A stretch of DNA of 64,000 nt from Lactiplantibacillus daoliensis (GTDB taxonomy: Bacteria; Bacillota; Bacilli; Lactobacillales; Lactobacillaceae): positions 186,001-250,000 of the forward strand of contig NZ_BJDH01000005.1 of the NCBI RefSeq assembly GCF_005405005.1, written 5' to 3'. Shown here piece after piece: positions 2,807 to 53,010 of this stretch (position 1 is the stretch's first letter; the number at the start of each line of letters is the position of its first letter). The position numbers and the translations under genes are program-made. The notes beneath the pieces were generated by a model. That model saw only the letters and a program-made list of their open reading frames with translations. It was not told the origin of the DNA and did not search any database.

Positions 2807-3505
2807 ATGATAACTGAATTAGCAGCAATGTTACAGGAACGTTTTGGGATTGTGTTTAAGAATCCAGATTTATTGGCTGAAGCGTTCACGCAAGCGTCAT
2901 ATGTTAATGAACACCAAGATCAAAAGTTAAAGTATTATGAACGAGTCGAATTTTTGGGGGATGCCGTCTTAGAATTAGCGGTTTCTGAGTATTTATACAA
3001 GCGTTATAAAGACATGCCCCAAGGCAAGTTGACTCGCCTGCGAGCGGCAATGGTTTGTGAAGATAGCTTTGCCAGTTTCGCGCGTGAGTGTGATTTTCCC
3101 CAGTATATTCGTTTAGGTAAAGGTGAACAGAAAGCTAAAGCTTGGGAACGGGACTCATTATTATGTGACATTTTTGAATCCTTTGTCGGCGCTTTGTATT
3201 TGGACCAAGGCCGTGAACCAGTCCTGGCATTCGTCCACAAAGTGATCTTTCCAAAACTGGATGAAGGGCGCTTTGACGGGGTTTTCGATTATAAGACAAC
3301 CTTACAAGAATATTTACAACAAGCTGGCGATGTTGAGATTGACTACGAGTTAGTTGAACAAGATGGTCCAGCCAATGAACGGTCCTATGAAATTGCCGTT
3401 TCGGCCAATGGTCGTCAAATTGGTGAAGGCCGTGGGCATTCTAAAAAGGAAGCCGAACAAAGTGCAGCCCGTCAGGCTTACACGAAATTACAACAAAGTA
3501 ACTAA
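2807..3505 (+). CDS. rnc: Ribonuclease III
   Basis: 232 aa. Endonuclease for double-stranded RNA, used in rRNA processing and antisense turnover. The RNase III signature ERVEFLGDAVLEL (residues 45-57) carries the catalytic acidic residues, and a second acidic cluster is in DIFESFVGAL (121-130). A double-stranded RNA-binding domain covers about 160-230, ending in KKEAEQSAARQAY. The ribosome site is GAAAGGATG a few bases before ATG 2807. Its stop codon directly abuts repeat element A, so the rnc transcript should carry that structured element in its 3' region before smc, an attractive substrate for the enzyme itself (inference). Confidence 0.97.
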   Translation: MITELAAMLQERFGIVFKNPDLLAEAFTQASYVNEHQDQKLKYYERVEFLGDAVLELAVSEYLYKRYKDMPQGKLTRLRAAMVCEDSFASFARECDFPQYIRLGKGEQKAKAWERDSLLCDIFESFVGALYLDQGREPVLAFVHKVIFPKLDEGRFDGVFDYKTTLQEYLQQAGDVEIDYELVEQDGPANERSYEIAVSANGRQIGEGRGHSKKEAEQSAARQAYTKLQQSN

Positions 3506-4009
3506 AGGTTGAGAGTTGAAAGTTGCCGGTCTGTGCCACTACGTCAATAATCAGACATTCCGGTTGTTACTGATAACATACGGACGAGGGACCGGTTCAA
3601 GCCTAAAAAACGTCTTGAACCTCGTCTGGAAGCTTTGCCAAAATCGCAAATCTCCCAGACCGTCCGTGGTGTAAGGCCGGCAAAAAGCGCCGGTCAAACG
3701 CCACTTACACGTCCGATGCAATCAGCAACAGCCTCCAGCTAATCAGTTATTTATTGCTTAGCGGAGTCAGTCAGAATCAGTGTGCGGTGTCGGCAAGATG
3801 AGTCGGCGTTTTTGGCTGACTAGTCTTGCGGGGCAATTCAAAGACGTGTTTTGTCGGCTTTGAATTGAGGTGTCAGACCGTACCTTGGCTGGCACCGTCC
3901 CCCACGGCACACCGATTCTGACTGACGGAGCGTTGAATTTGGACGAGTCTACTTTAAACGTAACAGTTACTGATACTGCGACAGATGTTTTTGAGACTTT
4001 CAACCTTTA
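3504..4009 (+). repeat. Structured intergenic element, copy A
   Basis: About 500 bp between rnc and smc, homologous to 48062-48539. It is bounded by the inverted repeat AAAGGTTGA (3504-3512) / TCAACCTTT (4000-4008). The core 3562-3733 (172 nt) can fold as a closing stem, GGTTGTTACTGAT (3562-3574) with 3721-3733 plus CGGAC (3581-3585) with GTCCG (3711-3715), around three hairpins: GGTTCAAG/CTTGAACC (3594-3601/3614-3621), TTTGC/GCAAA (3634-3638/3646-3650) and GGCCGGC/GCCGGTC (3675-3681/3689-3695). A second domain closes with GTCAGTCAGAATC/GATTCTGACTGAC (3766-3778/3914-3926) and contains CAATTCAAAG/CTTTGAATTG (3834-3843/3858-3867). The stretch 3861-4009 also reads as a peptide resembling a C-terminus, broken upstream by TGA. 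I see no convincing start codon. No named family recognised. Confidence 0.85.
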
Positions 4010-4122
4010 GAAAGTAACCAAAATCCGAAGGGTAAAAAATTAGTTGCCCACTTCTGGTTGCCACTGATCAAAGCTCGTTTTAGAACAAGTAACAATTAAT
4101 AATTACAGGAAGTTTGTGTCGA

Positions 4123-48061: not shown

Positions 48062-48539
48062 TGGATGGTATTTAGCTTTAAAACTAAAGGCTACAGGTAA
48101 AAATTGCCTGGCTGCGCTACTATTGTCAACCATTAGGTGATGAAAACTAGTTGAATACTGCCGTTTCCGGTTGTTGCTGATAACATGCGGACGAGGGACC
48201 GGCTCAAGCCTTAGGAACGCCTTGAACCTCGCCCGGAAGCTTTGCAAAAAACGCAAATCTCCCGAACTGTACGTGGTGTAAGGCCGGCAAAAAGCGCCGG
48301 TCAAACGCCACCTGCACGTCCGATGCTATCAGCAACAACCTCCAATTAATTAGTGGCTTTGAAGTTATTGACGCTTAGCGGCGCAATTCAAAGACGTGTT
48401 CTGTCGGCTTGGAATTGAGGCGTCAGGTCGTACTTTGACTGGGACCGTCGCCCACGGCACACCGATTTTGACTGACGGCCCGCTGAATTTAGACAAGCCT
48501 ACTTTAGATGTGACGGTTACTGATACTTTCAATCTTTAG
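48062..48539 (+). repeat. Structured intergenic element, copy B
   Basis: About 480 bp after dnaD and homologous to 3504-4009. The core 48169-48340 has the same 172-nt length as copy A with about 19 differences by hand alignment. The closing stem is perfect here: GGTTGTTGCTGAT (48169-48181) with ATCAGCAACAACC (48328-48340), plus CGGAC/GTCCG (48188-48192/48318-48322). The second domain has lost about 60 bases, including the 5' arm of A's long stem, but keeps CAATTCAAAG / CTTGGAATTG (48384-48393/48408-48417) with one mismatch. The frame ending TAG 48537-48539 is open for about 55 codons. A strong terminator follows. Confidence 0.85.
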
Positions 48540-52618: not shown

Positions 52619-53010
52619 ATGTAAATTCTGGGTAATCGCGGTCGGCTTATGTCGGCTGAGGAAGGTCCATGCCCGCACAAGCTGCGATGCTTGTAGTGTT
52701 CGTGCTCGGTGAAAAAATAAGCTGGGGAACCGATTTTATCGGTTACGGCGGAAAAAACGGCTAAGGTGCAAGCTATGCCCGAGTATTCCTGAAAAGTGCC
52801 ACAGTGACGATACTAAGTTGGAAACGACTAAGTTGGAACGCGGTAAACCCCTCGAGCGGGCAACCCAAACTACGGTAGGGGCGCTTCACATAAGTAAATG
52901 AACTAAATGTGGGGGGAGATCCTTGTGATCTCGAGATAGATGATTGCCGCCTAACTAACAGACACCTGTACTTTAGTTAGGTACAAAACATGGCCTACAG
53001 GAATTTACAT
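52619..53010 (+). ncRNA. rnpB: RNase P RNA, type B
   Basis: Catalytic RNA of RNase P. Ends pair as P1: ATGTAAATTC (52619-52628) with GAATTTACAT (53001-53010). Conserved cores are present: GAGGAAGGTCCATGC near 52659, ACAGTGACGATA near 52801, GAGCGGGCAACCCAAAC near 52853, and GATAGATGATTGCCGCC with ACAAAACATGGCCTACAGG at the 3' end. Length of about 392 nt is typical of Bacillus-type RNA. It has its own terminator. Confidence 0.97.

Follow-up and report, generated by a model that had tools for sequence, protein, structure and literature searches.

A strongly covarying, two-module repeat of Lactiplantibacillus daoliensis with the ends of an IS4-family insertion sequence is probably a MITE-like transposon

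Two homologous intergenic stretches lie in the 64,000-nt stretch of Lactiplantibacillus daoliensis DNA that was analysed as a whole (hereafter the window), copy A between rnc and smc and copy B between dnaD and ponA. They are copies of a transposon that has IS4/ISPepr1-type ends and do not represent an independent RNA gene. The explanation that we favour, at a probability of about 0.75, is that each repeat is a non-autonomous, MITE-like transposon that was mobilised by an ISPepr1-type transposase and whose fold is kept as DNA. That the window element is a transposon is close to certain, and mobilisation by a transposase of the ISPepr1 type is very probable. The vehicle, a MITE of an ISPepr1-type IS, is ordinary and well supported; the cargo is unusual, consisting of two inverted, strongly covarying multi-helix modules that are common to several genera and look maintained in the propagating lineage, probably as DNA.

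Covariation is usually taken as strong evidence of functional RNA. Here very strong covariation sits in a transposon, and a strand test based on G-U and A-C pairs points mostly to maintenance at the DNA level. If confirmed, the family would offer, in bacteria associated with food, a natural system of high copy number in which to test how selection or template switching keeps DNA hairpins, and a warning to structured-RNA surveys about mobile DNA folds. It explains roughly 1-2% of the genome (105 places, up to 0.5 kb) as intergenic DNA tied to a named transposase type.

A high-copy element with two inverted modules

The initial annotation had reported a structured element of about 500 bp that occurs twice in the window. 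The homology is real, the cores (3562-3733 and 48169-48340) being 172 nt long each with 19 differences. The boundaries, first placed at 3504-4009 and 48062-48539, were corrected to 3502-4010 for copy A and 48084-48539 for copy B, from terminal inverted repeat (TIR) to TIR; the outer part proved to be a second, inverted module (3759-3937 on the minus strand in copy A, a remnant in copy B). The count of two fell short: R1, a covariance model that rests on 45 modules, detected at least 145 module matches at no fewer than 105 places in the 2.63-Mb genome, which are lower bounds since 150 of 600 candidates were scored. Copy A alone as the query gave at least 49 aligned pieces and copy B alone at least 72, with 40 candidates scored for each.

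The full element is about 0.5 kb long and is composed of the left TIR (CTAAAGGTTGAAAG), module I on the plus strand, the homologous module II inverted on the minus strand, and the right TIR; one module measures roughly 190 nt. The features of the two window copies are:

3495..3501, no strand: left target duplication of copy A, AAAGTAA, repeated directly at 4011-4017, the two 7-bp repeats abutting the TIRs
3502..3515, plus strand: left TIR of copy A, CTAAAGGTTGAGAG, from the genome pattern search, the ORF end and the sequence
3552..3740, plus strand: module I of copy A with the P1-P5 fold, containing the core 3562-3733 (R1, 170.5 bits)
3759..3937, minus strand: module II of copy A, inverted homologue of module I (R1, 98.4 bits)
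3997..4010, minus strand: right TIR of copy A, exact CTAAAGGTTGAAAG, from the pattern search and the sequence
4011..4017, no strand: right target duplication of copy A, AAAGTAA, direct repeat
48084..48097, plus strand: left TIR of copy B, degenerate, CTAAAGGCTACAGG, from the sequence
48158..48347, plus strand: module I of copy B (R1, 169.3 bits)
about 48376..48478, minus strand: module II remnant of copy B, with about 60 nt missing at one side (profile match, positions 63-165 of 167)
48526..48539, minus strand: right TIR of copy B, one mismatch, from the pattern search

All 40 paired clusters of the L. daoliensis genome were convergent, while 34 places had a plus-strand match only and 31 a minus-strand match only. 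Among the collected loci, adjacent module matches separated by under 400 nt were convergent in 110 cases, on the same strand in four and divergent in none. A protein-coding repeat was rejected: four short ORFs of the window had no Pfam match, and no coding frame of at least 60 codons spanned an element in 95 loci. The L. daoliensis genome also contains shorter module matches of about 142-160 nt and 44-65 bits (C8:91957-92101, C4:66486-66628 and about ten similar ones), perhaps a subfamily, and a TIR-bounded 239-bp stretch (L203:2403-2641) that is probably an internally deleted copy.

Ends shared with an IS4-family insertion sequence

The 14-mer TIR CTAAAGGTTGAAAG had 129 matches in the genome at up to two mismatches, against 29 for the reversed control. 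At up to three mismatches, a count made without a shuffled control, 39 of the 95 element loci showed both ends, 19 the left end only, 18 the right end only and 19 neither. Target duplications were scored in the 36 of 89 copies with both ends, the other 53 being left out, with a score that took no account of repeats of 7 bp like the one at copy A; a perfect 8-bp repeat was present in 10 of the 36 and absent in 26. The mean score was 4.05, compared with 2.86 ± 0.16 for shuffled partners, whose maximum in 2000 shuffles was 3.43. Copy B has no clear target duplication.

A search of relatives for TIR pairs at IS-like spacing revealed an IS of 1567 bp in the congeneric genome G020 (L361:1427-2993). 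It is bounded by these TIRs, the left one with one mismatch, and flanked by the 7-bp duplication ATAGGAG; the product of its intact ORF of 456 aa matches NF049925 (IS4 family) at 460 bits, the cut-off being 250. IS homologues bounded by exact CTAAAGGTTGAAAG occur in two other genera, with three copies in genome G084 and one in G063, and a degraded IS copy in Companilactobacillus huachuanensis (L367) has exact CTAAAGGTTGAAAG at both ends. Other homologues have related ends (CTGAAACTTGAAAG, CTGAAATGTGAAAG, CTAAAGAGTGAAAG), and several homologues carry 6-8-bp duplications, e.g. ACAGTAAA. Beyond the TIR, the left MITE end has GTTAA in common with two of four IS left ends, and the right MITE end has TTTT in common with all four IS right ends. 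Because the same TIRs bound IS elements encoding an IS4-family transposase, we consider the window element to be a non-autonomous, MITE-like transposon: it is short, non-coding and high-copy, has TIRs and a target duplication, and relatives harbor an autonomous element with the same ends.

A candidate YREK motif (Y..R...E......K) is recognisable in the transposase stretch YARRWQIEGYFKIAK. Excerpts of PMC2266710 describe the ISPepr1 subgroup as 1500-1600 bp long with preferentially 5'-CT ends, 7-8-bp repeats and AT-rich targets, and the TIR fits seven of the eight fixed positions of the end consensus given there, YT-AA-YTT---A. By these features the mobilising IS fits the ISPepr1 subgroup of the IS4 family, and a transposase of this type probably moved the elements in trans.

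An IS4 transposase of this type was not found in the L. daoliensis genome at E ≤ 1e-30. An autonomous copy beside the extra TIRs of this genome was likewise discarded: visual inspection of 12 stretches showed none, and a tblastn search of them for the IS4 transposase gave no hit. The 15 stretches inspected by eye in low-copy genomes held no transposase beside the modules except one ORF, which is presumably ISL3-like and whose stretch lacks the TIR at up to three mismatches. There is no module inside the intact G020 IS, which can thus do without one. Transposase and modules were not clearly associated across 121 genomes, modules being present in 3 of 9 genomes with the transposase and 19 of 112 without it, if both surveys are assumed to cover the same genomes. 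The G020 IS has a GC-rich hairpin with a T-run just inside its left end, and another T-run lies close before the IS.

Fold and covariation of the module

In both copies the core folds into a long closing stem enclosing hairpins, as annotated; the stem of copy B, described as perfect, is so over the outer 14 bp only and then has internal loops. The double change that had been pointed out, TGG/CCA in copy A (3627-3629/3655-3657) against CGG/CCG in copy B, is as described. The module comprises the closing stem P1 with a short outer stem, P5 (GGAC/GTCC) around the hairpins P2 and P3, and the hairpin P4, and some of its unpaired bases are invariant. An H-type pseudoknot in P2 was dropped; covariation backs nested P5/P2 pairs instead. 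Folded as DNA, module I of copy A gave z-scores of -6.1 and -6.9 on its two strands (none of 200 shuffles as good for either), and the whole element folded as RNA gave -13.0 (none of 100).

In the alignment of 45 sequences, 89.0% of the cells at paired positions were paired, compared with 69.7% after shuffling, and 511 cells were changed on both sides, compared with 130.9. The covariation score was 0.506, against 0.163 for shuffled and at most 0.103 for slid versions, the slide control favouring the structure somewhat because the structure was derived from the same sequences (RNAalifold, extended by hand); the effect is still very large, and in 500 shuffles the observed values were never attained.

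The initial annotation was also right in calling the element structured, apparently non-coding and unlike the RNA classes that it had considered, as the modules have no Rfam match and a known RNA family was rejected. At gathering scores the window matched RNase P only (class B, 52624-53002, RF00011, 329.9 bits), which then served as the RNA control family. Nine loci searched up to an E-value of 5 gave two riboswitches outside the modules and no module match; one miRNA row far below the cut-off lies beside a module at one of the loci (L037). A literature search that reached few subscription papers found no description of the element.

Maintenance of the fold at the DNA or the RNA level

RNA stems tolerate G-U pairs but not A-C pairs. 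Judging the strand by G-U content has a precedent in an excerpt of PMC2864571. In the best 150 of 207 module matches, which come from several genera, the stems had 7785 Watson-Crick, 264 G-U, 267 A-C and 362 other pairs, counted as cells and not as events. The stems of Lactobacillaceae RNase P, for which the 30 sequences that scored best among 61 were used on a structure from RNAalifold, a method that allows G-U, had 2055, 342, 17 and 49, respectively. For the L. daoliensis genome, where only pairs at least 70% Watson-Crick were counted, the G-U/A-C ratio was 98/142 in the sense of the module for module I (67 best rows) and 111/143 for the other 83 rows, mostly module II with some shortened module I. 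When these copies were divided by the orientation of the neighbouring genes, three of the four classes leaned to A-C (module I sense 29/45, module I antisense 22/29, module II antisense 20/32) and module II sense leaned to G-U (39/27), which is no consistent sign of upkeep as transcribed RNA. The consensuses of 11 subfamilies, which remove most of the decay after insertion, contained 538 Watson-Crick, 9 G-U, 7 A-C and 14 other pairs.

Since there is neither a G-U excess nor, in either direction of transcription, a consistent preference for G-U in the copies of this genome, the pairing appears to be kept in the propagating lineage, probably as DNA. The selection for RNA shape that the initial annotation read from the double change is therefore unsupported as it stands, and we regard maintenance of the fold at the DNA level as somewhat more probable than at the RNA level. 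A counter-signal comes from the element plus strand, on which the non-Watson-Crick consensus pairs are G-U at 10 positions and A-C at one (two-sided binomial 0.012). With clusters assigned to module I or II by score and species, all clustered cells amount to 819 G-U (491 + 328) against 506 A-C (392 + 114) on this strand, and helix P4a of module I has 123 G-U and 3 A-C cells. An excess of this kind at the consensus level is not predicted by a purely double-stranded function, and it weakens a fully strand-symmetric fold. It weakly favours a fold of the single plus strand in the propagating lineage, G-U still being rare. Folded single-stranded DNA would fit these data, as would RNA whose stems are rewritten by template switching, and a classical conserved RNA fits poorly.

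It is possible, if doubtful, that the covariation is mainly mutational, template switching copying one hairpin arm from the other without selection on the folded product. Such a mechanism has been described for RNA stems (PMC8794818, in excerpt) and would account for double changes with few G-U intermediates; in module I of the L. daoliensis genome, 76 double Watson-Crick changes were counted against 16.4 expected by independence, an excess that includes subfamily history. However, 298 changed pairs in the same set were single and unrepaired, beside these 76 and 5 other double changes, and the invariant unpaired bases and the helix arrangement shared by several genera need selection or repeated origin.

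A functional RNA, be it regulatory, ribozyme-like or for transposition control, that is made from the element plus strand and whose covariation reflects RNA selection is unlikely. The very strong covariation, the invariant unpaired bases and the fold of the whole element as RNA are what such an RNA would lead one to expect, and the plus-strand bias, helix P4a and the sense class of module II point the same way. The near-equality of G-U and A-C in the 150 modules, set against RNase P, argues against it, as do the subfamily consensuses and the three orientation classes that lean to A-C.

Under the favoured explanation of a MITE-like transposon with a fold kept as DNA, copies able to fold would propagate better, their folded DNA being exposed as a single strand or a cruciform. 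Folded DNA might aid excision, replication-coupled mobilisation or protection, and template switching at the hairpins could repair mismatched stems, copies drifting after insertion.

Distribution across Lactobacillaceae

A covariance-model search across Lactobacillaceae, the check that the initial annotation had suggested, did yield further copies at varied loci with covarying stems, and their dispersal with TIRs and target duplications bears out the mobile, amplified family that it had envisaged. With 21 candidates scored per genome and rough model E-values, R1 matched 22 of 121 Lactobacillaceae genomes in 9 of 40 genera at E ≤ 1e-5, and the best match was below 1e-20 in 11 genomes of seven genera. 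The same helix arrangement is found in several genera. Pattern matches, among those listed, were in Lactiplantibacillus, Furfurilactobacillus, Companilactobacillus, Levilactobacillus and a MAG. With the DNA of copy A as the query, 13 of 60 genomes matched, L. daoliensis among them; the 23 genomes from outside Lactobacillaceae gave no match.

The TIR is not always part of the element. The outer flanks lack it in F. milii, F. rossiae, L. fabifermentans, L. daowaiensis and the genomes G142, G035/G095 and G129/G155, where 1 of 136 flanks had it at up to three mismatches, with 4 in shuffles. L. xiangfangensis, the MAG, L. pingfangensis and L. nangangensis had it on 31 of 89 flanks (1 in shuffles), and intermediate shares were seen in L. 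herbarum (3 of 13), Levilactobacillus (1 of 3) and G014 (2 of 7), with none in shuffles. As the modules of Furfurilactobacillus, L. fabifermentans and some others lack this TIR, another vehicle must exist, and the module seems to predate its IS4 vehicle or to exceed it in mobility. A tentative and rather improbable extension is that the module is itself the mobile unit, its multi-helix fold selected as single-stranded or cruciform DNA and not as RNA, carried by several vehicles across Lactobacillaceae genera and recognised by a putative fold-binding protein.

In C. huachuanensis the TIR has 234 forward and 231 reverse matches at up to one mismatch, against 3 and 2 for the control; these 465 matches perhaps reflect a recent burst. 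This species (G161) also has a variant of about 320 bp in which exact TIRs flank one module only (L368-L370, L376). An origin from phages or plasmids was rejected, as the plasmid and phage sets, from which near relatives were possibly left out, had no match and the viral contigs had no module match by pattern. An 18-mer TIR pattern is present in five viral contigs.

Relation to known systems

The closest known relatives are the ISPepr1 subgroup and the MITEs derived from it, with which the element shares the 5'-CT ends, a TIR identical to that of a Lactobacillaceae IS4-family IS and the 7-8-bp duplications; it differs in having no transposase and in having two folded modules, no module having been detected in the intact IS. 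The bcr1 repeat is much shorter than this element. The bcr1-bcr3 repeats of the Bacillus cereus group are likewise high-copy, intergenic and MITE-like in the excerpted text of PMC3446304, whereas the present element has two inverted multi-helix modules, other ends and other hosts. GOLLD, named after Lactobacillales (PMC12286853, in excerpt), and ROOL are large structured Lactobacillales RNAs with an ornate fold of comparable kind; in contrast to them, the module has neither an Rfam match nor a viral-contig match by pattern, lies inside a transposon and has few G-U pairs.

A REP/BIME-like origin is very unlikely; on this view a tyrosine (RAYT/Y1) transposase moved the element in the form of single-stranded DNA, and the IS4 ends were gained later. 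The palindromic units that are paired in opposite orientation and mostly lie, as REPs do, between genes in convergent or tandem arrangement (excerpts of PMC3733652), and the modules without IS4 ends in several species recall such elements, but 190 nt of multi-helix module do not match the 20-40-bp palindrome with a GTAG or CGTC tag by which that text defines a REP, there is no single tagged palindrome, and the TIRs and 7-8-bp duplications of the L. daoliensis genome fit a DDE enzyme. REP/BIME units are similar in their opposite orientation near gene ends and differ in size, TIRs and duplications; the frequency of GT pairs in REP stems is remarked upon in the same excerpts, and few such pairs occur in the consensus stems here.

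Insertion sites

The element was found between tandem genes at 46 of the 95 loci, between convergent genes at 38 and between divergent genes at 10, one locus being unclear; the genes were taken as the longest frames, and the counts stand without a genome background. Terminator-like hairpins with T-runs faced the element on 12 of 72 flank sides, against 0.9 expected from simple shuffles; gene ends carry terminators in any case. The left TIR of copy A holds the rnc stop codon TAA at 3503-3505 (AGT AAC TAA), and the insertion thus sets the C-terminus of RNase III here.

The rnc/smc site could be measured in 19 of 20 other Lactiplantibacillus genomes. It is empty in 12 of them, with a remainder of 24-25 nt; the remainder is 45 nt in one genome and 70-85 nt in two, and two more (G015 and G019; L294, L296) have 245-247 nt of other sequence with no reported element match. 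The relatives G004 and G010 (L306, L305) carry a module there, the remainder being 325 nt in one of the two and 520 nt in the other. At the dnaD/ponA site, the matches listed include a module in the relatives G010 and G013 (L392 and L393), and the flanking matches are 18 nt apart in G020. When different species have a copy at one and the same site, these copies resemble each other no more closely than they resemble other copies. Simple inheritance is therefore insufficient, which leaves gene conversion or recurrent insertion at favoured sites; the two sites would be either hot sites or under concerted evolution.

Window positions 4018-4100, which separate the right target repeat of copy A from the usual smc leader, contain a third AAGTAAC and some 70 nt of otherwise unaccounted-for sequence, perhaps left over from a previous insertion.
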